Assembly: GCF_000687475.1 (NCBI RefSeq)
Contig: NC_057316.1
Coordinates: 744,001-808,000, forward strand
Reading direction: 5' to 3'
Source: Ustilaginoidea virens
Taxonomy: Eukaryota > Ascomycota > Sordariomycetes > Hypocreales > Clavicipitaceae
DNA length: 64,000 nt
Positions 19,674-49,170 of this stretch are shown here, piece by piece. Position 1 is the stretch's first letter. Each line of letters starts with the position of its first letter. The notes below the pieces were generated by a model. That model saw only the letters and a list, made by a program, of their open reading frames with translations, had not been told where the DNA came from and did not search any database. A program made the translations under genes and the position numbers.

Positions 19674-21786
19674 ATGGGCAAGCACTGTAGGCAAACCGTT
19701 ACCACATAATAGCGTTGGCCTATTTCTCGCGCGATGCTTCGACAACCTGGCTAATGAGTTGTTTCAATCAGCGCAATATGGAGTGATCCTCGACGCGGGG
19801 TCATCAGGAACTCGCCTCTACGTCTACAAGTGGAAACATCCCGTCGTGGCCAGGAAAAATGCTTCTGCTCCGGCATTGCGAAGCCTGCCGAAATTGAAGC
19901 TGAAGAAAAGCAAGAAGATACACCCGGGCCTCGCCACGTTTGCTCACGATGCGGCACTAGTTGGTCGCGAACACCTCAAGCTTCTCATGGATGTGGCCTT
20001 GAATGAGGTACCCAGGGACAAAATCGCAGAAACTCCGATATACTTGCTGGCTACAGCAGGCGTTCGACTACTGCCAGAGCATACGCAGGCATTTCTCCTT
20101 CAGAATGCTTGTAGTTATCTGCAAACGACCAAGTTCCGCCTGCCTAACTGCCGTGAACAGGTTCGAGTGATAACGGGCGAGACGGAAGGTCTCTATGGCT
20201 GGATCGCAACAAATTATCTTCTAGGTGGATTTGATCAGCCCAAAGAGCACGCTCATGGTAAAGGCCACCATACCTACGGTTTCCTCGACATGGGTGGTGC
20301 TTCGGCCCAGATCGCTTTTGCTCCCAACACCACTGAAGCTGAACGTCACGCAAACGACCTTAGATTGATTCGCATGCGGCGGTTGGACGGGTCCCCAATG
20401 GAATACAAAGTTTTCACCGCGACGTGGCTGGGCTTTGGCGCTAACAGAGCGCGGGCACGATACATCCAAAGCCTGGTGGAAAGCTATGGCGATCTTGTTG
20501 ATGAAATACCTGACCCTTGCATGCCCAAAGGGCTGCGAAGCCTGATAGCAAAATCACACGTTGCCGAATCGCACAAAAAAGGGCAAAGTTTGATTGGCAC
20601 TGGTGCCTTTGATGAGTGTCTGAAGAAAACCTACCCGTTGCTTCGGAAGGACGCACCTTGCGAAGATCACCCCTGCCTCCTCAATGGGCAACATGTTCCT
20701 GCGATAGATTTTGAAGTTAATCATTTCGTCGGCATTTCGGAGTACTGGCATGCTACCCACGGTGTCTTTGGAAAGGCACAAACAGCGTATGATCTAGCGA
20801 CTTTTCAGCGCAAAGTCATGGAGTTCTGCAACCGAGACTGGGCAACCATAGAGGGCGACATGGTCAAACGGAAGAAGTCAATCGAACAAAAGGTCGAAGA
20901 CGCACGGAATGCGTGTTTCAAAGCATCCTGGCTGATCAACATGCTGTACGAAGGGATAGGAATTCCTCGGCTCGGCATAGAGCCGACAAATCTAGCCGGC
21001 GTCAACACAACAAACGAGGGTCATGACATTGCAAAGCAAAACTTCATGGGTCCCTTTCAGCCGGTCGATACAATCCAAGGCGTGGAAGTGAGCTGGACAC
21101 TTGGGAAAATGATTCTGTATGCTGCCGGTCAAATCATGCCGGACAAACACTCCCTGCCCGTCGGATTTGGGAGCAACGTAGCACCGGGGATTCCTTCAGA
21201 CTTTGAGAATGCTGGATCTGCCCCCCTCTCAACCACCTTTGATGCAGTTGACGATGATTCTGACTCCGACAGCATTACCTTTTTTACTGGCCATGCATTG
21301 TCTAGCATCCTGGGCGTCATTATTTTCGCCATCATAGTACTGTATTTTTGTCACAAGCCTGATCGACTACGTCGGATTCTTAGAGCCGTTCCCTGGCGAT
21401 GCCGCCATCCAAAGCGCAAATCGAAGCCGTGGTTGGGACTGACCAGGAAGGTGTTTGGTCGCTGGACTGCACACTACGACCGAATACTGGAAGAAGGAGA
21501 CGCTGACGAATATGAACTGGATGCGGCTTTTGATCTGGTGGATGGTTCAGATGGTGGCGATGGACATGGGAACGGAGGACCGAAAGTCAATGTGGAACGA
21601 GGTGATGATGTCAATCCTCCATCTGTGATGGACCGGCATGGGCTCGTGCTGCGAACAGAAAGTAGGGAACGTCTCACGACTAATCTGCAGATGTTGAATG
21701 CTGGGAAGAGGAGCAGAGCGGGCAGCCCAACTCGGTCAAAGGGCCCTCCTATGACTCCTTGGCAAGATTCTTTGAGGACAACATGA
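19674..21786 (+). CDS. YND1: GDA1/CD39-family apyrase, Golgi nucleoside diphosphatase (Ynd1-like)
   Basis: Membrane apyrase hydrolysing NDP/NTP in the Golgi lumen, which supports nucleotide-sugar exchange for glycosylation. Apyrase conserved regions are all present: ACR1 DAGSSGTRLYVY, ACR2 LLATAGVRLL, ACR3 GETEGLYGWIATNYLLGG and ACR4 LDMGGASAQIAF. A single C-terminal membrane segment (SSILGVIIFAIIVLYF, about residues 513-535) precedes a cytosolic tail, the Ynd1 layout. I prefer a two-exon model: a 13-nt exon 19674-19686 (ATGGGCAAGCACT), intron 19687-19771 (GTAGGC donor, CTAAT, TTTCAATCAG acceptor), then exon 19772-21786. This gives 675 residues beginning MGKHSQYGVILDAG, like other fungal members. 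The unspliced alternative starts at ATG 19666 and adds 31 residues of unusual N-terminus. Family certain; start less so. Confidence 0.88.
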
Positions 21787-24055: not shown

Positions 24056-24775
24056 TATTGCAATTCTTAAGGTCACTATAAAAGTAGAGCCTTACTAGCT
24101 AGCTAGATGGCACAAGACTATCTGCGACCTGTGAACTAATCTTAGTATAAATACTAGATTTTTCACCAAGTCCTAAGACTATATAAGTGCTATAAAGGAG
24201 GGCAAGTGTAAAGGCAAGGCAAATATAAGATAACCAGAAACGCAGGGAAGGTGGAAGTTAAGAGGCATATAGTGCATTAACAGACTCGATTATGCTACCC
24301 TTCTACTATCTAGAAAGAAGGGGAAAAGCTATCCTATATATACACGAAGGAGGGGTGGGCCCAGGCATCCAAGGTAGCCAGTAAGAAAGCTCCCCGTAAT
24401 GCTCGCTATGCCACGTATATAATACGTCAGCAGCCCCACTATATCCAGCCTTTCCAACCACCCTAACCACCGCACTAGTAATTAGCCACCACGCTAGTGA
24501 CTAACTACTACGCTAGTGACTACCCACCACACTAGTAGACTAGCCACCACACTAGTAGGCCCACCACGCTAATTTAGCAATGCCACACCTTTTTTAATAA
24601 GGCCTACCTTACTTAATATACAGTAAATAATCCACTGAAAATCCTAAGGTAAAAGGCAAAGGCCTAAGGTTGGTAAGACTACCGTAAGTCTAAGAGGCGG
24701 TATAAGGACTAGAAGGTCAGTAAGCCAGTAGGGCATTAGGCCAGCAGCCTAGTAGGCTACTATAGGATTTTAATA
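24056..24775 (-). repeat. Solo LTR of Copia family A, with TSD GTAAT
   Basis: A 720-base copy of the family A LTR (TATTGCAATTC start and TTTTAATA end on the + strand, so element orientation is minus). The 5-base GTAAT lies on both sides (24051-24055 and 24776-24780). It inserted into the Gypsy copy 1 gag region, and the internal part was lost by LTR-LTR recombination. Confidence 0.88.
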
Positions 24776-26184: not shown

Positions 26185-26326
26185 TTTAAATAGACTCTCT
26201 CAGCCTTACTATTATAACTCTATATTATAGAACTAATAATACAAGCGTTATACAACATCGAAATAAGTATGCCTAATAAAACGGGGGCAGACGGCATAGG
26301 GCAGTAGCGCCTCCGATATAATATAC

Positions 26327-27059
26327 TATTGCAATTCTCAAGGTCACTATAAAAGCAGAGCCTTACTAGCTAGCTAGATGGCACAAGACTGTCTGCGACC
26401 TGTGAACTAATCTTAGTATAAATACTAGATTTTTCACTAAGTCCTAAGACTATATAAGCGCTATAAAGCAGGGCAAGTGTAAAGGCAAGGCAAATATAAG
26501 ATAACTAGAAACGCAGGGAAGGTGGGAGTTAAGAGGCATATAGTGCATTAATAGACTTAATTGTGCTGCCCTTCAACTATCTAGAAAGAAGGGGGAAAGC
26601 TATCCTATATATACACGAAGGAGAGGTGGGCCCAGGCATTTAGGGTAGCTAGTAAGAAAGCTCCCCGTAATGCTCGCTATGCCACGTATATGATACGTCA
26701 GCAACCCCGCTATATCCGGCCTTTCCAACCACCCCAACCACCGCACTAGTAACCAACCACCACGCTAGTGACTAACCACCACGCTAGTGACTAACCACCA
26801 CACTAGTGGACTAGCCACCACGCTAGTAGGCCGCCACCACGCTAGTAGGCCACCACGCTAATTTAGCAATGCCACACCTTTTTAACAAGGCCTACCTTAC
26901 TTGATATACAGTAATAATCCACTGAAAATCCTTAAGGTAAAAGGCAAAGGCCTAAGGTAAGACTACCATAAGTCAAAGAGGCGGTATAAGGGACAGAAGG
27001 TCAGTAAGCCAGCAGAGCATTAGGCCAGCAGCCTAATAGGCTACTATAGGATTTTAACA
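26327..27059 (-). repeat. Solo LTR of Copia family A, with TSD TATAC
   Basis: A 733-base family A LTR flanked by TATAC on both sides (26322-26326 and 27060-27064). The internal CACCACGCTAGTGACTA array has a slightly different copy number from other LTRs. Confidence 0.88.
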
Positions 27060-28290: not shown

Positions 28291-29005
28291 AAGATTTCGC
28301 CCGCACCTAGGTAGCGGCACGGAACCGCCTCTAAAATCAATTCTAATATTTCCAATCGTTTTTTCTCGTCTGTTTACCCCCCTTACCTATAGCGTATCGC
28401 GTCTAGAGAGTGGGCGCGGCAGGCGCGGATAAAGTAATAGATATCGACGGAGGGAATAGGGGCGGCATAGCATATAGCCGCTATAACCCTAACACCACGA
28501 TTGCGAATAGCATATAGTATAACCAGTCTGAGACCGAACCTGCCTAAGGGCGGAAGCGACTAGTAGCCGATATTATTATAGATTTCATAAAAGAGCTTTA
28601 GGACTATATTCCCCTAGTAGTACTAGGAAGAGTGCGAGAGGCTATAAACTTTATAGTAGAGATTGCCCGGCAAAAGGCCGACCCAGGCAATATCTATACC
28701 CCTATTGGAACCTTTATATAGACGATCGAGACCGCAGTTAATAAGGCTATATAGAATCTCCTAAAACCTACTGCAGCCCCTGCCACGTGGGTATCTATCG
28801 CCACACGAGGGCTTATAGCCGCTATACTACCCCAATATAGTCTAGCTCCCCTTGCGGTACCCTTCTATATCTACCGCGAAGTCTTTATTAAAGGAAATAC
28901 TATTAGTAAAATCCTCTAGAATTGCACCCTAATCGAAATCGTTAATACAGTCAATAGGGCTACCGCTAAGGGAGTAGCGGTTACGGCCTATAGGCTCTAT
29001 AGTAG
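28291..29005 (+). mobile_element. LINE (Tad/I-like) piece 1: ORF1 5' part
   Basis: First piece of a non-LTR element read in one frame with stops at former Gln/Trp codons; segments such as EAINFIVEIARQKADPGNIY and PAATWVS-like stretches are seen. The family A insertion at 29006, with its AGTAG duplication, interrupts the frame, and the reading resumes at 34396. The 5' boundary is approximate. Confidence 0.5.
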
Positions 29006-29724
29006 TATTGCAATTCTTAAGGTCACTATAAAGCAAAGCCTTACTAGCTAGCTAGATGGCACAAGACTGTCTGCGACCTGTGAACTAATCTTAGTATAAA
29101 TACTAGATTTTTCACCAAGTCCTAAGACTATACAAGTGCTATAAAGCAGGGCAAGTGTAAAGGCAAGGCAAATATAAGATAACCAGAAACGCAGGGAAGG
29201 TGGAAGTTAAGAGGCATATAGTGCATTAACAGACTCGATTGTGCTGCCCTTCTACTATCTAGAAAGAAGGGGAAAAGCTATCCTATATATACACGAAGGA
29301 GGGGTGGGCCCAGGCATCCAAGGTAGCCAGTAAGAAAGCTCCCCATAATGCTTGCTATGCCACATATATAATACGTCAGCAGCCCCACTATATCCAGCCT
29401 TTCCAACCACCCTAACCACCGCACTAGTAATTAGCCACCACGCTAGTGACTAACCACCACGCTAGTGACTACCCACCACACTAGTGGACTAGCCACCACA
29501 CTAGTAGGCCCACCACGCTAATTTAGCAATGCCACACCTTTTTTAATAAGGCCTACCTTACTTGATATACAGTAAATAATCCACTGAAAATCCTAAGGTA
29601 AAAGGCAAAGGCCTAAGGTTGGTAAGACTACCGTAAGTCCAAGAGGCGGTATAATGGTCAGAAGGTTAGTAGGCCAGTAGGGCATTAGGCCAGCAGCCTA
29701 GTAGGCTACTATAGGATTTTAACA
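29006..29724 (-). repeat. A1 3' LTR
   Basis: In element orientation it runs TGTTAAAATCC to TTGCAATA. It contains the 17-18-base CACCACGCTAGTGACTA array at about 29416-29520. Confidence 0.9.
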
Positions 29725-29732
29725 CCCCCTCT
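29725..29732 (-). other. A1 polypurine tract
   Basis: AGAGGGGG in element orientation directly abuts the 3' LTR, the expected primer for plus-strand DNA synthesis. The same sequence is at 39583-39590 in A2. Confidence 0.7.
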
Positions 29733-29838
29733 GATTAGCTACTGTAGTATCAAGCTAATCGTATAAAGGATAGGGAAAGAAAATGCAATAAAGGTCCTAA
29801 GGAAAAACATAGGAAAAACCTTAGTAAGTTAGTATAAG

Positions 29839-32800
29839 TTAGCAGGCCCTAAGACCTAGTAACTCGCGGAACCTAGTAAATTTAGGGCCCGGCAGTGGCT
29901 TTGTAAGACCGTCAGCAGGCATACTATTAGTAGGTAAGTAGGTAATTTTAACCAAGCCCAGCTGTGCTTGCTCCCTAATATACCGGAATTTTAATAGTGT
30001 ATGCTTAGTGCGAGCATGCTGGTTAGGGTCATTAGAATTCGAAATAGAGCCCTGATTATCGCAGTATAACGGTATAGGGCGTAAAATATCGATTTCCAGC
30101 TCCTTACAAAGGTTAGAAAGCCACTGTACCTCACGGATAGTCTCAAGTAATGCATCAGATTCAGCTTCTAAAGTAGATAATACTACTAAAGAGGCTCGCT
30201 TGGAACGCCAGCTAATAGGACCACTATTAATAGTAGTTAAGAAGCCTCCAGTAGATTTAGAGGTTTCTTTATAGCCAGCAAAATCGCTATCAGAATAAGC
30301 GGTTATAATAGGCTGTTGATTGCTTTTAGTAAAGCAAATAGCTAGGTTCTCAGTGCCTTTAAGGTAGCTAAAGCTGCCTTTCGCAGCATTTAAATGCACA
30401 TTAGTTGCCTTAGACATAAACCGAGAAAGGTATTGGGTAGGAAATGCTAGGTCGGGCCTAGTCATCATCATAAGCCACATTATAGTGCCAGTAAGGCTCT
30501 GATAAAGGCTCTGATCAGTAGGGCTAAGGTCTTTTCCACTAGATTCATTTAGAATCCCTAGTTGAAGTGGAATTAGCTGAGGTTTAGTATCCTGTAGACC
30601 GAATTTAGCTAGGACCTCTGCTATAAATTGGGCTTGGTGTAGCCATAATAGACCTTCCTTCCTATTTCGTATAATCTGTACGCTTAGGAAGAAGGAAGCC
30701 GGACCGCGGTCTTCTATAGCATAGACCTTATGGAATTTCCTTTTTAGCTGGTTAATATAAGTTATATTTGGACCAACTAATAGGCAATCGTCAATATAGG
30801 TGACGATAAAAGTGCTGGTTTGCTTATTATAAAAGACGGCAGCATCAGAAGCTAAAGGTAAAAAACCTTCACTAGAAATCAGGTCTTTTAGCCGGTGTTG
30901 CCATTTGCGGGGTGCTTGTTTTAGCCCGTATAGGGCCTTCTTTAGCAAGATAGCTTGCTTAATAGAAGGGTTAAATCCAGCTTCTTTAAGCAAAGTTAGT
31001 AGCCGTTGGCGCTGTATATTAGACCAAAGCTTGTTATCAGTTAGTAAACTTTCCGTAAATTCAAGGAATCCATCAGGAATATCCATATAAATAGTCTCAG
31101 AAAGTTCGCTATTTAGAAAGGCGCCTATAAAGTCTTCTGACTTAGGAAGGTAATCCACGGTGGCATTAGTATTAGTAATATCATCCGGGGTAGCATTAGT
31201 AATGCTAGTAAAATTAGTAGGGTCCGGCATGCTTTCTAGGTCATCCGGTATAGCATTAGTGCTAGTAATGCTAGTAAGGTTAGCAGAGTTAGTAGGGTCA
31301 GGAATGCTTTCTAGGTCATCCAGTAAAATAGCAGGTTCTTTACTGCTAAATACCCCCTCTGAACCTGTATTTTGCCCTTTGTGAAAGTCTCCTTCTAGGC
31401 CACTAGAAATAGGGCCTATACCTTCATTTTGATGGATAAAGGTAATAAAGGTTGTTTTAGTAACAACCTTCTTCTTTAGAAGGTAGACAAGGTAGGTATT
31501 AGCATAGGTCTTTTTAAGTAGCTGAATACCTATATGCCCTAGCCGTACATGCCAAATGCCGGCTAATTGTAATAGCTTCTGATATTCTGTATCAGCAGCT
31601 ATAAGGGCAGGAGTAGGGCTAGTAGCCACTACAGGATTTTCGCTAGTCGTAATAGCGGGATTTTCGCTAGTCGTAATAGCGGGATTTTCGCTAGTCGTAA
31701 TAGCGGGAGAGTTAGTAGTAGGGCTGGTAGCCTCTACAGGGTCTTCGCTAGTTGTGGTAGCGGGCTGGTTAGTAGTAGGGCTAGTAGCCTCTACAGGTTC
31801 CTTACTAGTCGCAGTAGTAGGAACGGGGGTAATAGTAGTATCCTCAGGATTACTATAATCAGCAGGGTTAGTAGGGCTAGGGACCTCTACTGATATACTA
31901 TTAGTAATAGTATAATGGCTGCAAGGTTGATGCAGTAGTGATGTGTCTATTCCTTTCTGTAGAAGGAAAAAGCCGTATTTTTCAAAATTAAAAATGCCGA
32001 TGCATTTACGGCTTGCTGACCAAAGCTGATTTCTAATTAGTACCCCTTTAGCGGCATAGTGCTTTACACCGCTAATAATGTTAATATCCAAGGTAGGAAT
32101 ATATAGTGCATTCTTGAGCTCTATAATACCCCATTTGGTGGGATTAACGCCCTGTAGCACAGTAAATCGTGCTGTGCCCCAACCAGTAGGGGAAATAGGG
32201 CTACCACCAGTAGTAATTACCGGCTTATCATCCTTCTCAAAATAGTGAAAAGTGGTGAAATACTTCTTATCATTTACAATATGATAAGTAGAGCCTATAT
32301 CGTAAAGGAGGGCATCCTTAGGGGTCCTACCGCCTGATTTAGCACTATAGCTTATATCAGTGGATATAGTGGTAGAAGAAGAGGAATAGGATATATTAGT
32401 ATCCTGGGTATTATAATTGCCTATAATAAAGGACTCAATATTTTGCTGTTTGCTGCTATTATTATAGTCCTGTTCCTTCTTCTTTTGCTGCTTCTTTTTC
32501 CTATTATTAGTAGAATTATTCTTGCTATTATTAGTAGAAGCGGCATTAATAGTAGTAGGGCTAGTAGCCTCTACAGGGTCCTTGCTAGTCGTAATAGCAG
32601 AAGGTTGGATAGTAGGGCTAGTAGCCTCTACAGGGTCCTTGCTAGTCGTAATAGCAGAAGGTTGGATAGTAGGGCTAATAGCCTCTACAGGGTCTTTACT
32701 GTTCATATTAGTAGGACCGGAGATAGTAGGGCTAGTAGCCTCTACTAGTTCCTTGCTAATTGTAATAGTAGGAACGTTACTATTTTGCCTACTAACTAAG

Positions 32801-32934
32801 CCTTGTATAAGGGTAGTTAGGGTATTCATCTGGGACTTTATATAGTCCATATCTAGCTGTAGTCGTGCAGTAAGATGAGCTTTAGAGTTGGAATCCAAAG
32901 TGGCCTTATAAGTGGAAGGCCTAGACTGTGCCAT
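29839..32934 (-). CDS. A1 gag-pol polyprotein, internally deleted but open for 1031 codons
   Basis: Copia-type polyprotein. In order: a short gag N-terminus (DMDYIKSQMNTLTTLIQGLV), ATSPT-rich tandem repeats, a basic Asn/Lys stretch, the protease-like ALLYDIGSTYHIVND, the GAG-pre-integrase HVRLGHIGIQLLKKTYANT, then directly YLVYLLKKKVV with no integrase core. RT resumes at motif A (DFIGAFLNSEL), with ALYGLKQAPRKW and the catalytic YIDDCLLVG. RNase H follows (AYSDSDFAGY, LEAESDALLETIREVQW, LYCDNQGSISNSNDPNQHART). ATG is at 32934. No stop interrupts the frame, in contrast to A2 and A3. It cannot supply integrase itself, so any mobility would need help in trans (inference). Confidence 0.85.
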   Translation of the reverse strand: MAQSRPSTYKATLDSNSKAHLTARLQLDMDYIKSQMNTLTTLIQGLVSRQNSNVPTITISKELVEATSPTISGPTNMNSKDPVEAISPTIQPSAITTSKDPVEATSPTIQPSAITTSKDPVEATSPTTINAASTNNSKNNSTNNRKKKQQKKKEQDYNNSSKQQNIESFIIGNYNTQDTNISYSSSSTTISTDISYSAKSGGRTPKDALLYDIGSTYHIVNDKKYFTTFHYFEKDDKPVITTGGSPISPTGWGTARFTVLQGVNPTKWGIIELKNALYIPTLDINIISGVKHYAAKGVLIRNQLWSASRKCIGIFNFEKYGFFLLQKGIDTSLLHQPCSHYTITNSISVEVPSPTNPADYSNPEDTTITPVPTTATSKEPVEATSPTTNQPATTTSEDPVEATSPTTNSPAITTSENPAITTSENPAITTSENPVVATSPTPALIAADTEYQKLLQLAGIWHVRLGHIGIQLLKKTYANTYLVYLLKKKVVTKTTFITFIHQNEGIGPISSGLEGDFHKGQNTGSEGVFSSKEPAILLDDLESIPDPTNSANLTSITSTNAIPDDLESMPDPTNFTSITNATPDDITNTNATVDYLPKSEDFIGAFLNSELSETIYMDIPDGFLEFTESLLTDNKLWSNIQRQRLLTLLKEAGFNPSIKQAILLKKALYGLKQAPRKWQHRLKDLISSEGFLPLASDAAVFYNKQTSTFIVTYIDDCLLVGPNITYINQLKRKFHKVYAIEDRGPASFFLSVQIIRNRKEGLLWLHQAQFIAEVLAKFGLQDTKPQLIPLQLGILNESSGKDLSPTDQSLYQSLTGTIMWLMMMTRPDLAFPTQYLSRFMSKATNVHLNAAKGSFSYLKGTENLAICFTKSNQQPIITAYSDSDFAGYKETSKSTGGFLTTINSGPISWRSKRASLVVLSTLEAESDALLETIREVQWLSNLCKELEIDILRPIPLYCDNQGSISNSNDPNQHARTKHTLLKFRYIREQAQLGLVKITYLPTNSMPADGLTKPLPGPKFTRFRELLGLRAC
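31634..31710 (-). repeat. 24-base coding tandem repeat in A1 (SENPAITT units)
   Basis: Three near-identical copies of ggattttcgctagtcgtaat plus agcg, encoding SENPAITT-type repeats between the protease and GAG-pre-integrase regions. Not seen expanded in A2. Confidence 0.85.
32554..32765 (-). repeat. 57-base coding tandem repeat in A1 replacing the gag core
   Basis: Three-plus copies with starts at about 32555, 32612 and 32669 (57-base period), encoding SKDPVEATSPTIQPSAITT. The unit resembles the SEDPIEVTNPT/EPVEATSPTT linker further down the same polyprotein. Confidence 0.85.
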
Positions 32935-33164
32935 TATAGTGGTTAAAAGTCGTTAAAAATGGTGCCAATAGCTGTAGGAACAGATGAATAACCAGCTAAA
33001 TAGCTGGCAAAATAGTCGAGCAATTAGCTGGACAGCTAGTAAATATAGTGGCTAGTAGCCTACTATAAAAGGTAACCGCAGAATATAGCGGTAGGTCTCA
33101 GTATAAAAGCACAAATGCCGTAGGCGTTGTGCAAGTCCAGAATATAGCGTTAGTATTTAAGGTG

Positions 33165-33290
33165 CTTATGTGGTGCCGTAATATAAAGGTGCCGTAAGTG
33201 CCGTAGGTGCCGTAGGTGCCGTAGGTGCCGTAGGTGACGTAGGTGCTATAGGTGCCGTAATATAAAAGGTGCCGTAAGTGCCGTACCAAA
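33165..33290 (-). repeat. 9-base tandem array (ggtgccgta) in the A1 leader
   Basis: Seven or so copies of ggtgccgta with substitutions, in the untranslated leader between the primer site and the gag start. A2 (about 44968-45075) and A3 (about 56930-57015, reverse) have equivalents with different copy number. Confidence 0.85.
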
Positions 33291-33653
33291 AGTGCTATAA
33301 GTGGAAGAGTATAACAGGTGCCGTATAGTGCAGTAGGTGTCGTGCACTAGGTGCAAAGGTGTTATACAGTGGTATAGTGTGGTAGATATCACACTATAAA
33401 ATCCGTAGGTGCCGTAGGTTACTCCGAAAATAACGTAAGGTTACGCTAAAAGTGCCGTAAGGTTACGCCGTAAGTTGCCGTAGGGGTACGCCGTTGATTG
33501 CCGCAGGGTAATGCCGTAGGTAACAAAGGGTAAGCCAAAGGTGATAAGGGTAAGCCAAGGATACCAAAGGATAGCTATATTAGTAGTACTAATAAGCAAG
33601 AGAGACTAAGGGGTGAACACAAAAGAGGTAGGGTAAAAACAAAGAAGTAAAAA

Positions 33654-33668
33654 CCCGGGCTCATAACC
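33654..33668 (-). other. A1 primer-binding site matching the initiator tRNA-Met anticodon arm
   Basis: In element orientation GGTTATGAGCCCGGG starts right after the 5' LTR. Its complement, CCCGGGCTCATAACC, has the CAT anticodon in the loop context typical of eukaryotic initiator tRNA-Met. Copia of Drosophila and yeast Ty5 use this internal half-tRNA priming. The same 15 bases flank A2 (45457-45471) and A3 (56522-56536). Confidence 0.7.
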
Positions 33669-34390
33669 TATTGCAATTCTCAAGGTCACTATAAAAGCAG
33701 AGCCTTACTAGCTAGCTAGATGGCACAAGACTATCTGCGACCTGTGAACTAATCTTAGTATAAATACTAGATTTTTCACCAAGTCCTAAGACTATACAAG
33801 TGCTATAAAGCAAGGCAAGTGTAAAGGCAAGGCAAATATAAGATAACCAGAAAACGCAGGGAAGGTAAGAAGTTAAGAGGCATATAGTGCATTAACAGAC
33901 TCGATTGTGCTGCCCTTCTACTATCTAGAAAGAAGGGGAAAAGCTATCCTATATATACACGAAGGAGGGGTGGGCCCAGGCATCCAAGGTAGCCAGTAAG
34001 AAAGCTCCCCGTAATGCTTGCTATGCCACGTATATAATACGTCAGCAGCCCCACTATATCCAGCCTTTCCAACCACCCTAACCACCGCACTAGTAATTAG
34101 CCACCACGCTAGTGACTAACCACCACGCTAGTGACTACCCACCACACTAGTGGACTAGCCACCACACTAGTAGGCCCACCACGCTAATTTAGCAATGCCA
34201 CACCTTTTTTAATAAGGCCTACCTTACTTGATATACAGTAAATAATCCACTGAAAATCCTAAGGTAAAAGGCAAAGGCCTAAGGTTGGTAAGACTACCGT
34301 AAGTCCAAGAGGCGGTATAATGGTCAGAAGGTTAGTAGGCCAGTAGGGCATTAGGCCAGCAGCCTAGTAGGCTACTATAGGATTTTAACA
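33669..34390 (-). repeat. A1 5' LTR
   Basis: A 722-base partner of the 29006-29724 LTR, followed by AGTAG, the target duplication. Confidence 0.9.
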
Positions 34391-35175
34391 AGTAGCAATA
34401 CGATCGTTACCTTTAAAAAAGAAAAAGTAAAGTATACTATAGATACGACCTAAGTATGCCCCGCCTTTAGCTAGGAGGCAGAACCTAACCGACGCTTATT
34501 TAGTATTATTATTAAAAGCTTCCCGACCTATTATACTGCGAATACTGCGATAAAAGATATTTAGTCAAATCTTACTAAAGCTAATAGAGAGGGCTTCACT
34601 AGGGTCTCCTTTCGCCGCCCTAGGGGGACCGCAATATAAACGCCCCTAATTATAGGGGTAGACTCTATCGACCTTATAAATAAGCTTTATAAAGCCGGCA
34701 TTATATACTAAGTAGAGATATTCGAAGCCGAACCTTATAATAATGCTATATACCCTCGCTAGTGCTATAATTACTTTAAATTCGGCTATATCGCTATATA
34801 TTGCATAGCGGTAGCTCACTATGGCTAATACGGCTCTAAATGCTACCTAGATAACGATTAAAGCTGCCTAGCTACTATATAGAACTAATGTAAATCCTGC
34901 CTTAACTATCTCAAACTATACCTAGCGTAGTCCTACCTCTATAAAGTAGCAAACGAATAATAAGAAAAAGCTAGAAACTCCTATAGCGATAGACTAAGGC
35001 TCTTCGCCTTATATATAGTATTAGACGCTAATGCTATCCTAATCGCGGACTAGGGCTGCCGCTATATAGCTAGTAGATCTCCTTTATACGAGCCCTCCCC
35101 CTAGAAATAAGGCCGACCGGTTAGAAGTATTAATAGGACCCTTTATATTAGGGCTAATAGTAGTATTACTGCCTT
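34391..35175 (+). mobile_element. LINE (Tad/I-like) piece 2: ORF1 3' part with zinc knuckles
   Basis: Continues the frame of 28291-29005. It reads NTIVTFKKEKVKYTI, then PNRRLFSIIIKSFP, then a cysteine region CYNYFKFGYIAIYC and YGSKCYLDN, which look like CCHC knuckles damaged by Cys-to-Tyr changes (TGC to TAC). This is the ORF1 end of Tad/I-type elements. Interrupted at 35176 by element D1 with its GCCTT duplication. Confidence 0.65.
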
Positions 35176-38814: not shown

Positions 38815-39582
38815 TATTGCAATTCTCAAGGTCATTATAAAAGCAGAGCCTTACTAGCTAGCTAGATGGCACAAAACTGTCTGCGACCTGTGAACTAATC
38901 TTAGTATAAATACTAGATTTTTCACCAAGTCCTAAGACTATACAAGTGCTATAAAGCAGGGCAAGTGTAAAGGCAAGGCAAATATAAGATAACCAGAAAA
39001 CGCAGGGAAGGTGGAAGTTAAGAGGCATGTAGTGCATTAACAGACTCGATTGTGCTACCCTTCTGCTATCTAGAAAGAAGGGGGAAAGCTATCCTATATA
39101 TACACGAAGGAGGGGTGGGCCCAGGCATCCAGGGAAGCCAGTAAGAGGGCTCCCCATAATGCTCGCTATGATACGTCAGCAACCCCGCTATATCCGACCT
39201 TTCCAACCACCCTAACCACCGCACTAGTAATTAGTCACCGCACTAGTAACTAGCCACCACGCTAGTGACTAACCACCACACTAGTGGACTAGCCACCACG
39301 CTAGTAGGCCACCACGCTAATTTAGCAATGCCACACCACGCTAGTAGGCCGCCACCACGCTAGTAGGCAACCACGCTAATTTAGCAATGCCACACTTTTT
39401 CAACAAGGCCTACCTTACTTAATATACAGTAAATAATCCACTGAAAATCCTTAAGGTAAAAGGCAAAAGCCTAAGGTTAGTAAGACTACCGTAAGTCTAA
39501 GAGGCGGTATAAGGGCCAGAAGGTCAGTAGGCCAGTAGGGCATTAGGCCAGCAGCCTAGTAGGCTACTATAGGATTTTAACA
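38815..39582 (-). repeat. A2 3' LTR
   Basis: Like the other A LTRs but with an extra duplicated block (CACGCTAATTTAGCAATGCC twice, about 39316-39392). Confidence 0.9.
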
Positions 39583-42500
39583 CCCCCTCTGATTAGCTAC
39601 TGTAGTAGCAAGCTAATCGTGTAAAGGATAGGGAAAGAAAATGCAGTAAAAGTGCTAAGGAAAAACATAGGAAAAACCTTAGTAAGTTAGTATAAGTTAG
39701 CAGGCCCTAAGGCCTAGTAACTCGCGGAACCTAGTAAATTTAGGGCCCGGCAGTGGCTTAGTAAGACCGTCAGCAGGCATACTATTAGTAGGTAAATAGG
39801 TAATTTTAACCAAGCCCAGCTGGGCTTACTCCCTAATATACCGGAATTTTAATAGCGTATGCTTAGTGCGAGCGTGCTGATTAGGGTCGTTAGAATTCGA
39901 AATGGAGCCCTAGTTATCGCAGTATAGCGGTATAGGGCGTAAAATATCAATTTCCAGCTCCTTGCAAAGGTTAGAAAGCCACTATACCTCACGGATAGTC
40001 TCAAGTAATGCATCAGATTCAGCTTCTAAAGTAGATAGCACTACTAAAGAGGCTCGCTTAGAACGCCAGCTAATAGGACCACTATTAATAGTAGTAAGGA
40101 AGCCTCCAGTAGATTTAGAGGTTTCTTTACAGCCAGCAAAATCGCTATTAGAATAAGCGGTTATAATAGGCTGTTGGTTGCTTTTAGTAGTACTAAAGCA
40201 AATAGCTAGGTTCTCAGTGCCTTTAAGGTAGCTAAAGCTGCCTTTCGCAGCATTTAGATGCACATTAGTTGCCTTAGATATAAACCGAGAAAGGTATTAG
40301 GTAGGGAATGCTAAGTCGGGTCTAGTCATCATTATAAGCCACATTATAGTGCCAGTAAGGCTCTAATAAAGGCTCTAATCAGTAGGGCTAAGGTCTTTTC
40401 CACTAGATTCATTAAGAATTCCTAATTGAAGTGGAATAAGCTGAGGTTTAGTATCCTGTAAGCCGAATTTAGCTAGGACCTCTGCTATAAATTAGGCTTG
40501 GTGTAGCTATAATAGACCTTCCTTCCTATTTCGTATAATCTATACGCCTAGGAAGAAGGAAGCCAGACCGCGGTCTTCTATAGCATAGACCTTATGAAAT
40601 TTCCTTTTTAGCTGGTTAATATAATTTATATTTAGACCAACTAATAGGCAATCGTCAACATAGGTGACGATAAAGGTGCTAGTTTGCTTATTATAAAAGA
40701 CGGCAGCATCAGAAGCTAAAGGTAAAAAACCTTCACTAGAAATCAGGTCTTTTAGCCGGTATTGCCATTCGCGGGGTGCTTATTTTAGCCCGTATAGGGC
40801 CTTCTTTAGCAAGATAGCTTACTTAACAGAAGGGTCGAATCCAGCTTCTTTAAGCAAAATTAGTAGCCATTAGCGCTATATATTAGACTAAAGCTTGCTA
40901 TCAGTTAGTAATAAGCTCTCTATAAATTCAAGGAATCCGTCAGGGATATCCATATAAATGGTCTCAGAAAGTTCGCTATTTAGGAAGGCGCCTATAAAGT
41001 CGATTTGCTCTATCTCCCAGTTATTACTAGCAGCCAAAGCTAGTATAACCCTCCAGGTAGGTAGGATAGAGGTAGAAGCATAAGTATACTGAAAGTCCTT
41101 TCCTTCGACTTGCATAAAGCCCTTGACAACTAATCTAGCCTTATATTTTATAGGCTGATTATTAGCATCCTTTTTAACCCGAAAAATAGGCTTATTGCGT
41201 ATAATTTTCCTATCAATAGGAACGCTAGACTTAGGAATAAACTGGAAAACTTTAGTATCCAAAAGCTGCTTGAATTCTTTAAATAGTGCCTTTATCTAAA
41301 GGTCTTTTTCTTTTTTAGGGCATCGTAGCACATCCTTCCAGCTATTAGGCGTACTATTAGGGGCCTTTTTAGCTAGCTTACGCTTAGCTGCATAGCAGGA
41401 ATCCCATATTAGGTGATATAAATCATAATTAGGGAATAAGTCGGTAGGGCTAGTAGGGTTAGCAGGGCTAGCAGGGCCAACAGGGCCAACAGGGCCAGTA
41501 GGGCCAACAGGGCCAGCAGGGCCAACAGGGCCAGTAGGGCTAGTAAGGTCGGCAGGAGTAAGGCTAGTAAGGATATCTATAAGGTCATCCTTTGCAGTAG
41601 CCGGGGACTGTAGTATAGTACCTTCTGACTTAGGAAGGTAATCCACGGTGGCATTAGTGTTAGTAATATCATCCGGGGTAGCATTAGTATTAGTAACGCT
41701 GGTAAAATTAGTAGGGTCCGGCATGCTTTGCAGGTCATCCGGTATAACACTAGTATTAGTAATGTTAGTAAGGTTAGTAGGGTCTGGCATGCTTTTAAGG
41801 TCATCCAATAAAATAGCAGGTTCTCTGCTAGATACCCCCTCTGAACCTGTATTTTGCCCTCTATGAAAGTCTCCTTCTAGGCCACTAGAAATAGGGCCTA
41901 TACCTTCATTTTGGTGAATAAAGGTAATAAAAGTTGTTTTAGTAACAACCTTCTTCTTTAGAAGGTAGACTAGGTAAGTATTATTACCTAGAGTAGTAAG
42001 GAGCCTACCAGGCTCGGTATGGGGCGCTAATTTGCGGCTTTTTACACGCTTTTCGTGTGGTATAAGCACTTCAATAGCTGCTCCAATGGCCCTAAGGTTA
42101 ATAAGATCAGGGTAGTGCTCCGGCGTAATATGGTCATAATCCTTTAATAGCTCCTGATAGGGGCTAGAAGGTCTATTAGTAACAGCTGTTATATTTACTA
42201 GTATAATAATGCTAGTAATTACAGTAGACCAGAGGTTAGATGGAAGCCTTGACCAGGCTATAGTAGCACGTAGCCTATCAGCTATAACCCTAATGGACCG
42301 CTCAGCTAGGCCGTTTTATTCGTGAATATAAGGGCAAGAGGTATTAAAAGCTATACCCTGTTTAATAAGCTAATCACTAAGCATTTTGTTGATTTCATTT
42401 CCACCATTATAGTGGAATTCAACAGGCGTTTTACTATATCTGACCTGTAGGCTCTGTATAAAGCTCTGTAATGCTTTAAAAACAATAGTGCCTTCCCTAT

Positions 42501-43400
42501 TAGGCAGCAAGTAAAGCCAGCGGAATCGGGATTTTCTGTCCACTAATATAAGGGCAATAGGTCGTTTGTTATATGGCATAGGTGATATAGCAAAAGTATT
42601 ACCTTCTATAATATCTAGGCATTTAGCTGGATTAGGTATCGTATCTTTAGAAGGTCTTCTAACCTTTTTAGCCTGTATATAGGCTAGATAGCGAAAATCA
42701 GCATCTTTAACCTTATTAAGGTTAGGTAGACTAGGGGTATTAGCATAGGTCTTTTTAAGCAGCTGAATACCTATATGCCCTAGCCGTACATGCCAAATGC
42801 CGGCTAATTGTAATAGCTTCTGATATTCTGTATCAGCAGCTATAGGGGCAGGAGTAGGGTTAGTAACCTCTATAGGGTCTTCGCTAGTCGTAATAGCGGA
42901 AGGTTGGGTAGTAGGGCTAGTAGCCTCTACAGGTTCCTTATTAGTCGCAGTAGTAGGAACGGGGGTAATAGTGGTTTCCTCAGGATCACTATAATCAGCA
43001 GGGTTAGTAGGGCTGGGGACCTCTACTACTATACTATTAGTATAGTGGCTGTAAGGTTGATGCAGTAGTGGTGTGTCTATTCCTTTCTGTGGAAGGAAAA
43101 AGCCGTATTTTTCGAAGTTAAAAATGCCGATGCATTTACGGCTTGCTGACCAAAGCTGATTTTTAATTAGTACCCCTTTAGCGGCATAGTGCTTTATACC
43201 GCTAATGATGTTAATATCCAAGGCAGGAATATATAGTGCATTCTTGAGCTCTATAATACCCCATTTGGTAGGATTAACGCCCTGTAGTATAGTAAATCGT
43301 GCTGTGCCCCAACCAGTAGGGGAAATAGGGCCACCACTAGTAGTAATTACCGGCTTATCATCCTTCTTAAAATGGTGAAAAGTGGTGAAATGCTTCTTAT
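39583..43400 (-). pseudogene. A2 pol remnant: protease, integrase, RT and RNase H
   Basis: Full domain order with RIP-type stops. Readable open pieces are: protease/GAG-pre-integrase/integrase (42370-43221; WHVRLGHIGIQLLKKTYANT, IALILVDRKSRFRWLYLLPN with the first catalytic Asp), linker with GPVGP repeats (41296-42069), RT fingers (40888-41262; KYKARLVVKGFMQVEGKDF, then QIDFIGAFLNSEL) and RNase H (39982-40263). An example of damage is at 40361-40379, where CAG codons present in A1 (30497-30515) are TAG. Not expected to make a functional protein. Confidence 0.8.
41455..41545 (-). repeat. Collagen-like GPVGP/GPAGP coding repeat in A2
   Basis: A 9- or 18-base periodic gggccaacagggccagcag array encoding (G-P-x)n between integrase and RT. 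Absent from A1 because of its second deletion. Confidence 0.85.
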
Positions 43401-44697
43401 CATTAACAATATGACAAGTGGAGCCTGTATTATAAAGGAGGGCATCCTTAGGGGTCCTACCGCCTGATTTAGCACTATAGCTTATATTAGTGGATGTAGT
43501 GGAAGAAGAATAAGATATATTAGTATCCTGGGTATTATAGTTGCCTATAATAAAGGCCTCAACGTCTTACTGATTGCTGCTAGAGTCCTATTTTTTTTTC
43601 TGTTGCTGCTTCTTTTTCCTATTATTAGTAGAATTATTCTTACTATTATTAGTAGAAGCGGTATTAGTAGACCCTTTATTCTTAGAGTCTTTAGAAGCCT
43701 TAAGCTGCTTAGGGTTATTATTAGTAGCTACTTTATTAGACCCTTTAGAACGCTGTTCTTCTAGTAGGTTAACTATAAAATACTAGAGGTTAAATTTGCT
43801 GCTGTTAATAATACCTTGGGCGCTATAAGCCCTAATTATAGAGCGTTGGCGTTTAGTCTAGCGGGTAAATACCCCCTCTACAGCCTAAAGATACTAGTTA
43901 ACTTAGTCGAAAGAGTCGATTTTAGAACCTAGGATTCTAAGGCGAGAAATATAGCTGTTAAATTCGCTATTAAAAGCTTCTAAAGTGCCCTTATAACTGG
44001 TAAATGTAAGGGTGTGAAAGGTAGGGTATAAGTATGCCCGCTATACTTCTAGTGAGTGGCAATACTAGGCTACTAGCAGAAGGTAGGCTTCCTCTGGGTC
44101 ATTACACCAGTCTATAGCCTCTGCAGCTTCTTTACTATAGCTATTCTTTAGCATTAGTAGTAGAAGTGCCTGCTTAGACTCATTAAAGTGCCTTGCTATA
44201 GAGGGGTCGTTAATAAAGTTAGCTATTTTAAAGGCCCTAAGTTGTATAGTAAGGGCCTGCTTCTATTGGTCGAAATTATAGGGGCTTTTTAGCTTTTGGG
44301 ATTCCTTAAAGCGGTTGGCAGTCTTCGCTAATTCTTTAATAGCCCCATCACTAATTTGGTTGGTAATAGTTGTTGTTGGTGGCGTTATATAAATAGGCTC
44401 TTTACCCTTATATTTTATAGGAGTAGAAGGTTGGTCGATTTCTATAACGTCAGCTTTACTATCATCATCTTTAGTGGTAGTCTTAGTGGAAGGTCTAGCT
44501 TTAGTGGCTTTAGTAGGCTTCTTATTAGTAGCCTAGGTAGCCTGGGTATCGTTATTTTGCCTACTAACTAGGCCCTATATAAGGTCAGTTAGTATATTCA
44601 TCTGGGATTTCATATCGTCCATATCTAGCTGTAGCTGTGCATTAGTATCAACTTCAGTATTGGATTTAGGGACCTTATAGGATCCTGACTCTGCTAT
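43401..44697 (-). pseudogene. A2 gag remnant
   Basis: Matches A3 gag (57257-58400). Features read in pieces: DMDDMKSQMNILTDLIQ-like N-terminus, a UBN2/gag-like core around FHTLTFTSYKGTLEAFNSEF, and a basic NNSKNNSTNNRKKKQQ tail. Start codon changed to ATA and multiple stops. Confidence 0.7.
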
Positions 44698-45471
44698 AGT
44701 GGGCAAAAAGGGTTTAAAAATCCATTGAAAAATGGTGCCGATAGTTGTAAAAACAGAGGAATAACTAGCTAAATAGCTAGCAAAATAGTCGAATAACTGG
44801 TAAAATAACCGAGTAACTAGCTAGACAGCTAGTAAATATAGTGGCTAGTAGCCTACTATAAAAGGTAACCGCAGAATATAGCGGCAGGTCTCAATATAAA
44901 AAAGCATAGATGCCGTAGGCGTTGTGCAAGTCTGTATTATAGCGTTGGTATTCAAGGTGCTTATATGGTGCCGTAATATAAAGGTGCCGTAAGTGCCGTA
45001 GGTGCCGTAGGTGCCGTGGGTGCTGTGGGTGCTATAGGTGCCGTAATATAAAAGGTGCCGTAAATGCCGTACCAAAAGTGCTATAAGTGGAAGAGTATAA
45101 CAGGTGCCGTACAGTACAGTAGGTATCGTACACTAGGTGCAAAGGTGTTATATAGTGGTATAATATAGTAGATATCACACTATAAAATCCGTAGGTGCCG
45201 TAGGTTACGCCGAAAATAACGTAAGGTTACGCTAAAAGTGCCGTGAGGTTACGCTGTAAGTTGCCATTAGGTACGCCGTTAATTGCCGCAAGGTAATACC
45301 GTAGGTAATAAGGGTAAGCCAAAGGTGATAATAGGTAAGCCGAAGTTAATAAGGGTAAGCCGAAGATACCAAAGGATAGCTATATTAGTAGTACTAATAA
45401 GCAAAAGAGACCAAGGGGTGAACACAAAAAGGTAGGGTTAAAACAAAGAAGTAAAACCCGGGCTCATAACC
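44698..45471 (-). other. A2 leader and primer site
   Basis: Untranslated leader with the ggtgccgta array (about 44968-45075), further taggttacgc-type repeats (45185-45260) and the 15-base initiator-tRNA primer match at 45457-45471. Confidence 0.65.
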
Positions 45472-46239
45472 TATTGCAATTCTCAAGGTCACTATAAAAG
45501 CAGAGCCTTACTAGCTAGCTAGATGGCACAAAACTGTCTGCGACCTGTGAACTAATCTTAGTATAAATACTAGATTTTTCACCAAGTCCTAAGACTATAT
45601 AAGTGCTATAAAGCAGGGCAAGTGTAAAGGCAAGGCAAATATAAGATAACCAGAAAACGCAGGGAAGGTGGAAGTTAAGAGGCATGTAGTGTATTAACAG
45701 ACTCGATTGTGCTACCCTTCTGCTATCTAAAAAGAAGGGGGAAAGCTATCCTATATATACACGAAGGAGGGGTGGGCCCAGGCATCCAGGGAAGCCAGTA
45801 AGAGGGCTCCCCGTAATGCTCGCTATGATACGTCAGCAACCCCGCTATATCCGACCTTTCCAACCACCCTAACCACCGCACTAGTAATTAGTCACCGCAC
45901 TAGTAACTAGCCACCACGCTAGTGACTAACCACCACACTAGTGGACTAGCCACCACGCTAGTAGGCCACCACGCTAATTTAGCAATGCCACACCACGCTA
46001 GTAGGCCGCCACCACGCTAGTAGGCAACCACGCTAATTTAGCAATGCCACACTTTTTCAACAAGGCCTACCTTACTTGATATACAGTAAATAATCCACTG
46101 AAAATCCTTAAGGTAAAAGGCAAAAGCCTAAGGTTAGTAAGACTACCGTAAGTCTAAGAGGCGGTATAAGGGCCAGAAGGTCAGTAGGCCAGTAGGGCAT
46201 TAGGCCAGCAGCCTAGTAGGCTACTATAGGATTTTAACA
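45472..46239 (-). repeat. A2 5' LTR
   Basis: Near-identical to 38815-39582 by eye, including the extra duplicated block, so the pair arose in one insertion. Confidence 0.9.
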
Positions 46240-49170
46240 ATCTAGCTTTACGCCTATCCTATCTATATCCGTAATAGAATAGAGAAAGGGGGTGCCGCTA
46301 TTAAGAACGTAAAAGAGGATATTACTAAATATTATTAGGATATTCAATATACTAAAAGATATGGCAGAACCTGCTCCGAAATTAATAGTATACTACTTAT
46401 CCGTTAACTTAATTATTAAAGATTTCATCAATCTTATTAGGGCTCTTGCTTGACCTATACCTACTGTAGATAGGCTGGAGGCGCTAGTATCCGGTAGGAT
46501 GCTGCGGAAGGTATGGTCACTATACTATTCTTCTTCTAGGAAGGCAGAATTATAATCCGGTAAGGGTATTCGGAAAGGGTCAATCTATAGGAAGGCATAT
46601 CGGCACGATTTATCCTATAGGGCTTATAACATCTAGATAGATAAAGAAGGTAACGGTTCTATTTGCGTAGGGGTTAAGAAGTACTAAATAGCTATAATTT
46701 GCGGTGCGATAGCATCTTCTGTTTCCCAATGTGTAACCCCTGCTATTATGACTTTAATATCTTCAGCGATATTATTAAAATCGGCATTATTAAGGTGGCT
46801 TTAGTCGGCAGTCCCTTTATATTCCTATAGGAAAATACGGAATTTCCTATCATTAGGGGCGGTACGATTAGAACAGTTCTTCAGCTATCGTGCCTTTAAT
46901 TTTTATTGTTCTTAGGCAGTATAGTTAGATGACCAACATCCTGATTTATTATAAATAAAGCATTTTCTTTGATGGGGCCTGGCTAGAAAGGCGCGATTCT
47001 ATTATTAATGCTATTAATTTGGGCTAAATCGGCGTTAAGAGGGTCCGTATCATTAGGGGCATTAATACCAGTTGTAGGATTAACTATATCTACGATCTAT
47101 GAATAACGCTATATTATTATTAATATCGTCAGTATCTTGATATTATTATTAAAGGAAATAATGCTATTGATTTATATGAATTGACTCGTAAATAGAGAGG
47201 GATCGCTATAGGTCAATAGCGAGGCCTTCAAATATAGAGGCATAACGATATATAGCCTGGCTATACTTAGGGGTATCCCTTACAGCATTAAGCATTTGCC
47301 GATGAAGCTCTATATTAGCTATAAAGGGGGGAAAAAGACTATAATGTAGGCGCTAAAGTTCCTCTAATAGGATATTAAGGTATTTTAGTTTTGATTTATC
47401 GGGATATTTCGCGATAGTTAATTGGAGCGTTATTCTATTCTAATGGTGTAAATAGAATTGCTTTATGCTCTTATTCTCGAAATAGCTCTTGATTTTGCAG
47501 ACTATATCGTCAAAAGTGAGGGTATTACGAATACGTTTGATATTATCAAAATAGTATATCTTAATATCGCCGATTAGCATAATTTAAAAAGCTCTAGCGA
47601 ATATATAATCGGGCAATCCTAGAAGGCGGTACTTACTCTTAAAGGATACTACCTTTAGTATAAGGAAGTCATCCATTTTGCCGCTATATCTATCCTCTGT
47701 ACGATAGCTGCATAAAAGGTCAGATATCTTCTTCGAAATATTATTAAACCCGGCCTCTATATAGGCTCTTTAGGTATGATCTTCTTAGTGGTATTCTAAA
47801 GGGTATTCTAGAACGGCTTATCGGTAGTCTTACGGTAGGCTAGTAGGATCTTTAGCTGGGTTATCCTATAACCTGGGTCGGTCTAGGTTTACCGGTCCTC
47901 CCGTTAAAATAGTCTATTTATCGGCCTAGGTAGGCCGATAGTGCCGGGAGGGGTCTGGTGCCGTGCCTATCTTTAGTATTATCAGGTGAGGCATTAGAGC
48001 CGGTAATTAAGGCATCCGGGCCTATAGGTTATAGCTGCGATACTATGATTCGTAATATCTAGCATTAGGGGCAGCTATTTTATCAATATTAGGGGCTTGC
48101 CTAGTGCCGCTAGTAGCGGTATATTAGGGAATATTAATATTAGTAGCTTAGAGGGTATCGCCAGTAACTTCGAGGGTATTACCGTCGGCGCTCTCTATTA
48201 ATTAAAGCATATTATTGGGGCCTATAACCTAACCTCTAGTCCTTATAGGCATACTATAATTCCGAGGGGCATTAGGATAGCCGCTTCGGCTAGCTTAGCT
48301 AGGGGTATAACCCCTAGGATAAAGTATTTAGTCGGTTAGGCTATAGTTATCATCTGTTGAATATTGCTATTGTCGGAAGCTTTCCCCTGTCTTAAATAGC
48401 GGCCTATAAATAGGCGTTTTCCTTTTCTATTATAGCGGCCGGCCCCTTTCTTCTTCGGTAGGAATAGGGGCCTTCTTTGACGTAAATAGAGGGATAAGGG
48501 GTTATTATGCCGTTAGTATTGCAAAGTCCCTAGGGGTCGAAGGGGCTTATAAAGGTCTTCGCGAGGGTAATCGTAAGGGTATTCATAATAGCAATCGCGA
48601 GGGTATCTATAAGGGCATTTATAAGGATATCCATAAGGGTATTCGAATAATTATAGTAGGGAGTGAATTCCTCGAGCTTATAATAGAGGGGGCATTCTGG
48701 TTTATTTGTATCTCCCGTTCGGTATAAGCAGTAGGGACTAATTATTCCCTATCTGGATTTAACCGGGATATAAAGGTTTTGCGTGCAAATTGGAGATCTA
48801 TTTCCTCTTAAGGCCACTCAGGCATATACTCTTATTAGAGATAGTGGGTAAGGGTTTTAACTGCTAACGATCCTGTGCTTCTAATATATACCCTACATTC
48901 CCATAGGTTTGTTCGGAATTCCTATAGAAGCCGTTTGTTAATACGGTTAAATAGCTCCTCGGTCCATTCCTTATAATTATTATGGAATTATTCCTATAGA
49001 TCATCATCCATCTTATTGCCTATTATGTAGTTATTGATAAGGTAGGCAATATAATTGTGTAATTGTTCGTCCGTGGTATTAGTAGGGTCAATCTGCCCTT
49101 TTAAATTAGCCTAGTCCTCTATGATGGTATTAGCATAAGGCCTAAGCCTTTCGGGTAGTAATCCCTCCAT
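46240..49170 (-). pseudogene. D1 gag and protease remnant
   Basis: Decayed gag-protease half of D1. It begins with an ATG at 49170 (complement; MEGLLPERLRPYANTIIED then stop), with NNYIIGNKMDDDL following. Further in are a degenerate CCHC-like region near 46940-46975 and a protease region before the A2 insertion. Stops are frequent. Confidence 0.6.

Follow-up and report, generated by a model that had tools for sequence, protein, structure and literature searches.

Non-autonomous long terminal repeat (LTR) retrotransposons that rely on relatives are described from several hosts. The barley copia element BARE-2 is unable to make Gag, and its RNA is found in particles of the autonomous relative BARE-1 (PMC3735527). 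Non-autonomous Athila copies of Arabidopsis are reported to keep intact frames and to recombine with relatives, their gag or env frames being under purifying selection (PMC2410132). In wheat, RLG_Quinta is the non-autonomous partner of RLG_Cereba, with shared LTR ends and primer-binding site (PBS), and keeps gag, by which it may supply Gag (PMC11302176); RLC_Angela is described as paired autonomous and non-autonomous groups that cluster by LTR, the non-autonomous frames being degenerate with many stops (PMC9744471). Successful fungal elements with incomplete pol genes are also described (PMC3248453). The element A1, located in a 64,000-nucleotide stretch of the Ustilaginoidea virens genome (contig NC_057316.1, positions 744,001 to 808,000, hereafter the window), is a Ty1/copia LTR retrotransposon that joins this known kind of non-autonomous element relying on relatives. 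It is probably recently amplified and mobilised in trans.

The likeness to each of these systems is partial. A1 and BARE-2 are both Gag-deficient copia elements with an autonomous relative (PMC3735527); unlike in BARE-2, integrase and reverse transcriptase (RT) are also cut in A1, a minisatellite stands in for the gag core, and packaging is a prediction from sequence. The BARE-2-like arrangement, a complete pol frame with Gag missing, is not that of A1 and is more closely approached by two 1413-codon relatives (L029 and L030). Athila and A1 both comprise intact-frame non-autonomous copies recombining with relatives, but A1's own changes look neutral and its constraint looks imported, whereas purifying selection is reported for Athila frames (PMC2410132). 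Like Quinta, A1 is a non-autonomous element that has LTR ends and PBS in common with a relative; unlike Quinta, it has lost the gag core (PMC11302176). Paired autonomous and non-autonomous groups are common to Angela and A1; unlike in the non-autonomous Angela subfamilies as reported, the A1 frame is open (PMC9744471). Titles and abstract beginnings of the literature matches listed gave no account of an A1-type element. LARD and TRIM, element classes without coding capacity, do not accommodate A1, which has an open frame of 1031 codons.

A1 is bounded by an LTR pair and a 5-bp target-site duplication (Table 1). The Ty1/copia assignment follows from its RVT_2-type RT, the integrase block upstream of the RT fingers in the nearby relative A2, and rve matches in fuller relatives. 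The intact 1031-codon frame proposed in an initial annotation of the window is confirmed, and the blocks that it described as absent relative to A2 are missing where it placed them: gag at about 43670-44553 of A2, integrase at about 41983-42724 and the RT fingers at 41001-41622. Each loss is a multiple of three, namely 759 nt for integrase (as measured in L037), 621 nt for the RT fingers (as measured in A2) and a net 654 nt for gag, in agreement with the initial claim of in-frame junctions. The gag core, however, is not plainly deleted; in its place stands a stretch of about 230 nt made up of a coding minisatellite with 57-bp units, and a second block of this minisatellite lies between the protease region and the integrase junction. 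The minisatellite is in frame, and its copy number varies among copies (differences of 57 and 114 nt). The integrase junction falls at a TAATACC repeat whose units are 759 nt apart in L037, and both pol junctions would be of the type expected from template switching. An origin of the RT-finger junction by RNA splicing was rejected: its 5' side reads AAG followed by GTACT, but the 3' side ends in TCG or TTG rather than AG, and GT is absent from the integrase junction.

A Pfam search of the A1 protein matched RVT_2 only at profile positions 111-242 of 244, together with Pol_BBD. Of the features initially annotated, YIDD and DIGS are present, the former with a partial RVT_2, whereas the GAG-pre-integrase match scores 13.6 bits, under the Pfam cut-off of 28.4, and no RNase H family was reported by the Pfam search; the RNase H assignment rests on motifs that we take to be characteristic of it. 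Three copies (L028, L039 and L043) have lost the same 111 nt, in frame, from the RNase H part. Copia proteases carry DTG as their active-site triad. Eight relatives with integrase or gag are mixed at this motif, with DTGS in three (L037F, L033 and L035), DIGS in three (L029, A3 and L036), NTGS in A2 and NIGS in L034, as are eight further A1-type copies (DIGS in four, DTGS in three, NTGS in one). The DTGS copy L037F is part of an open 1660-codon copy and the DIGS copy L029 an open 1413-codon form, and the DIGS of A1 does not clearly represent a working protease signature. Pfam and the comparison with A2 agree that A1 has no integrase core, no gag core and an incomplete RT, and would thus lack the enzymes for its own movement. 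Because gag, integrase and RT are broken, A1 should move only with proteins from others.

The 37.16-Mb genome (8 contigs) was searched with a 1001-bp query spanning both pol junctions. Of 794 candidates 40 were scored, yielding 67 matches, so the copy number is a lower bound. The query is spanned by at least 33 copies, 32 of them covering positions 1-1001 and the other 4-1001, with 88-100% identity, and there is one more match over 1-1001 at 85% and six partial matches. We fetched 35 of the 40 matched copies, the 33 plus two partial ones. The integrase junction is present in 35/35 and the RT junction in 33/35, with both in 33/35; L051 and L052 retain the RT fingers. This recurrence shows that the deletions are not assembly errors, an explanation that the initial annotation had kept in view. 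A gag core within the element body occurs only in L016, the gag matches of L022 and L024 falling outside the aligned body. The 1031-codon frame is kept in five of the 35 copies, at different sites; the frames of A1, L009 and L010 are identical, and those of L012 and L013 are 99.74% and 99.81% identical.

Twenty loci were fetched at 8.2 kb for the LTR counts. Five of them (L017, L022, L024, L027 and L028) are without two complete matches to A1's LTR, and L026 was excluded since its pair mixes a nested and an outer copy. All 14 copies having two complete LTR matches carry 5-bp target duplications, each of the 14 different, and the LTR pairs of four of these (L009, L012, L013 and L016) are identical. 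Own target duplications and identical LTR pairs establish A1-type copies as real, independent insertions, some of them recent. With amplification and shared structure both evident, the non-autonomous lineage envisaged in the initial annotation is borne out. In A1 and L010 the same six sites, including two indels, distinguish the 5' from the 3' LTR, and four of these differences are present in L021, yet each of the three insertions has a target duplication of its own. In normal reverse transcription the two LTRs of an element come out alike; the differences in A1, L010 and L021 could have arisen when the second strand was transferred between co-packaged templates, or through conversion afterwards.

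A candidate autonomous partner with matching LTR, PBS and polypurine tract (PPT) exists in the same genome. The gag, integrase and RT-finger blocks are each found at at least 40 places, with each search limited to 40 scored matches, and integrase-bearing open frames of 1660 codons occur at three. One 1660-codon copy is nested in an A1-type copy, within the minisatellite region, with LTRs identical over 720/720 and CTACT on both sides (the pair being L026 and L037, contig C2 about 4157726-4164940). Against A1, this nested copy is identical at 30/30 positions of the PBS, 34/34 of the PPT and 113/114 of the 3' untranslated region, and at 667 of 713 aligned leader positions. Its stretch from the C-terminal part of RT (RT-C) to RNase H is identical over 1298 bp to that at the place expected for a second 1660-codon copy. 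Judging from the identical LTRs, the nested partner may well be active.

Shorter open forms accompany the full-length ones. L029 and L030 carry 1413-codon frames with an A1-like start and integrase and RT-finger matches; a gag-core match was not found in them within the 3.3 kb compared. They lie on one strand of contig C2 at about 4127297-4136436, 5.9 kb apart, and are perhaps a tandem with common LTRs. L051 (contig C5 3406900-3411500) has an open 1212-codon frame with RT fingers present and gag and integrase cores absent, and a second place with the same match pattern is found at contig C2 253211-254014. The open forms of 1660, 1413, 1212 and 1031 codons suggest stepwise loss, for which the simplest order would be gag core, integrase core, then RT fingers. 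L051 is equal to A1 in the protease region, has a synonymous divergence (dS) of 0.21 from it in RT-C, and is placed among RT-deleted copies in the tree; it may be an intermediate in this loss, or a recombinant with regained fingers. L016 has a gag core within an A1-type body; its LTRs are identical and it has a target duplication of its own. This copy and the mosaic 3' halves described below indicate that A1-type and fuller templates have recombined.

Broken copies bear the marks of repeat-induced point mutation (RIP). The 30 copies without the 1031-codon frame contain 274 stops in the A1 frame, 260 of them at A1 codons CAG, CAA or TGG; two, in L051, are artefacts of alignment across its retained RT fingers, its frame being open. 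Over the 35 fetched copies the stops comprise 169 TAG, 103 TAA and 2 TGA, and C-to-T changes before A number 499 events over 125 sites, against 127 over 247 sites before T. The initial annotation had found the neighbours with full domains ridden with stops, and these follow the same rule: projected on A2 (950 codons aligned), 17/17 stops fall at A1 codons CAA, CAG or TGG, and on A3 (285 codons) 5/7. Given such stop positions and the excess of C-to-T before A, broken copies, including the neighbours, are attributed to RIP, and the open copies are those without RIP-type changes to stops. A reassigned codon, considered for the near-all-TAG stops in the integrase stretch, was rejected in favour of RIP on the mix of TAG, TAA and TGA at CAG, CAA and TGG and the C-to-T bias. 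Dinucleotide RIP indices gave no separation between open and broken copies.

Selection was counted on 32 of the 35 copies; L050 was omitted (coverage <70%), and L051 and L052 served as outgroup or panel only. Codons were dropped where they lay in minisatellites (open reading frame [ORF] positions 148-393 and 1099-1335), contained a RIP-masked base, were badly aligned or differed at more than one base. Panel depth has a median of 8 for the 5' half and of 5 for the 3' half. A 26-copy set had six more copies removed (at least four shared singletons), and a 17-copy set comprised those with A1's 3' haplotype. Across the 32 copies, the ratio of nonsynonymous (N) to synonymous (S) change (omega) is 0.69 for variants seen once (N100 S67), 0.80 for those in two or three copies (N29 S17) and 0.19 for those in at least four (N18 S47).

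The value of 0.19 for these deep variants would, by itself, point to a working protein, and would favour a fused 1031-residue product that functions in trans or in cis, for example as an interfering or RNA-binding protein, under purifying selection. Reported selection on Athila frames supplies a precedent (PMC2410132), and singletons in the 5' half of the 26-copy set lean the same way (omega 0.61, P 0.04). Such a function is nevertheless very improbable in A1, with RT and integrase incomplete and a DIG protease motif. Most of the 65 deep variants (51) are on the 3' side of the RT junction; ORF 1800-1950 contains 14 of these, as many as there are across ORF 1-1800, and 48 of the 65 also occur in full-length copies or in L051/L052. 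Between A1 and L046, dS is 0 across the protease region and reaches 0.22 in RT-C, the latter comparable to the 0.20 between full-length L053 and L054; by this contrast, one 5' half has been joined to 3' halves of different origin. A tree ordering of all copies failed as a history, the 3' half being mosaic. Variants with both alleles in full-length copies or L051/L052 account for N30 S81 (omega 0.18), whereas for private variants under the same panel N117 S50 compares with an expected 113.8:52.7 (omega 1.08), and 2 stops with an expected 2.5. With full-length copies as the only panel, private variants give N125 S65 (omega 0.89, P 0.25). Because splitting variants into private and shared biases the private class towards N, the 17-copy subgroup was counted without the split and without a panel filter, giving N67 S33 and no stop against 68.3:30.5:1.3 (omega 0.91, P 0.36), and N14 S4 against 12.1:5.7 for changes in at least two copies. 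Pairwise counts between more complete copies, with the same masking, yield an RT-C omega of 0 to 0.08, so constraint is detectable where present. On balance, the A1 product is under no detectable selection, contrary to one of the alternatives in the initial annotation, which proposed a check by this ratio; omega of about 1 already weakens the case for a functional product, and the constraint in deep variants is most likely imported from more complete copies.

An overlapping explanation, with the same mobilisation, is that selection in cis maintains the open frame and not the product: an RNA with an early stop would be degraded or not packaged, so that only in-frame deletion derivatives amplify. 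If so, the RNA must be translatable to its end for survival or packaging while its residues drift, and the lineage would have been whittled from 1660 through 1413 and 1212 to 1031 codons. Open frames of these four lengths side by side are compatible with this, as is omega of about 1 with a frame that is kept and a product that is not. Lineage-private deletions in at least three copies (integrase 759, RT 621 and RNase H part 111 nt) are in frame in 3/3 cases, the net gag replacement preserves the frame as well, and shared small indels outside the minisatellites (3, 3, 9 and 6 nt) are all in frame. We regard this explanation as unlikely all the same. Three of three arises by chance with a probability of 1/27, for a hypothesis formed after the observation; minisatellite units of 57 and 24 bp preserve the frame on their own; and at least two of the shared small indels also occur in L051 and may be imported. 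Frame-breaking indels are present in single copies (+2 in L022, +1 in L046, +1 in L047, with more, uncounted, in badly aligned copies). Only about 1-3 non-RIP stops are expected, so stop avoidance cannot be seen, and the near equality of observed and expected private stops gives no sign of it with little power. The initial annotation's alternative of selection on the open frame itself thus keeps the in-frame shared deletions in its favour and gains nothing from stops. That A1 is instead a lone decaying copy or assembly artefact, open by chance, has a negligible probability: dozens of same-junction copies stand on several contigs, and every two-LTR copy has its own target duplication.

The preferred reading, a trans-mobilised element with a neutral product, has several observations against it. 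With the full-length-only panel, private variants in at least four copies in the 3' half stand at N6 S14 (P 0.001), and this signal fades to N6 S5 only once L051 and L052 join the panel; these two are gag- and integrase-deleted with RT fingers kept, and show that variants occur outside RT-deleted copies, not that they are of full-length origin. The lean of the split towards N arises as chance repeats at silent sites are scored as shared. Mild constraint would give the same result as the unfiltered singletons of the 32 copies and as the 26-copy singletons (omega 0.82, P 0.17), including their 5' half. The tree position and A1-equal protease region of L051 fit a recombinant rather than an intermediate, and the three in-frame shared deletions count here too. 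Trans-mobilisation is offered as the best interpretation of the sequence comparisons rather than a demonstrated one.

Under this reading of trans-mobilisation, A1 represents a non-autonomous Ty1/copia subfamily that would descend from an autonomous family of this genome by losing blocks in frame. As its LTRs, PBS and PPT are kept, A1 RNA is presumably packaged and copied by the Gag and Pol of full-length copies. Co-packaging would permit recombination with these copies, probably via template switching, swapping 3' halves and placing a gag region in L016, and would bring in sequence shaped by selection elsewhere. Open copies are probably open through youth, RIP not yet having struck, and the fused 1031-residue protein is most likely a by-product. 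The open frame thus looks like an outcome of youth and recombination rather than a working protein.

Coordinates of A1 and associated features are given in Table 1. Two more family LTR matches lie near A1, at window 24056-24773 and 26324-27059 (97% and 91% alike). The neighbouring gene at 19666-21786 has as its best protein match a Golgi apyrase of Conoideocrella luteorostrata (Clavicipitaceae, Hypocreales), with 68% identity over 94%; the next-ranking matches are from Metarhizium, Tolypocladium and Claviceps, which we take to be Hypocreales as well, in line with a hypocrealean host. A protein search with A1 scored 7992 candidates; Phyllachora maydis accounts for most of the 120 matches listed out of 547, the top one among those listed having 47% identity over 40% of A1.

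Table 1. Features of A1 and its comparison relative A2, in window coordinates.
Feature	Position	Strand	Observation
A1 element, 5385 bp	29006..34390	-	end-to-end copies L009, L010, L012, L013 at 99.2-99.8%
5' LTR, 722 bp	33669..34390	-	98.6% identity to 3' LTR
3' LTR, 719 bp	29006..29724	-	differs from 5' LTR at sites where the LTRs of L010, and partly those of L021, differ too
Target-site duplication CTACT, 5' side	34391..34395	-	
Target-site duplication CTACT, 3' side	29001..29005	-	
PBS region just inside 5' LTR	33639..33668	-	30/30 bases as in nested full-length copy
PPT region before 3' LTR	29725..29758	-	34/34 bases as in nested full-length copy
Open frame, 1031 codons	29839..32934	-	ORF identical in L009 and L010
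57-bp coding minisatellite, in place of gag core	32542..32787	-	
Pol_BBD (protease region) match	32062..32304	-	DIGS motif at 32290-32301
Second block of same 57-bp coding minisatellite	31600..31836	-	
Integrase-deletion junction, at TAATACC repeat	31495..31501	-	present in 35/35 fetched copies
RT-fingers deletion junction	31134..31135	-	present in 33/35 fetched copies
RVT_2, C-terminal part, profile 111-242 of 244, with YIDD	30565..30960	-	
A2, comparison relative in which gag, integrase and RT blocks are present and stops are RIP-type	38815..46240	-	

In place of one suggestive copy there now stands, within a single fungal genome, a family of longer and shorter elements together with their likely partner. 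The lesson of A1 is mainly its imported signal of constraint: since constraint in a non-autonomous frame can be imported by recombination with working relatives, dN/dS across copies alone is not evidence for a working product.

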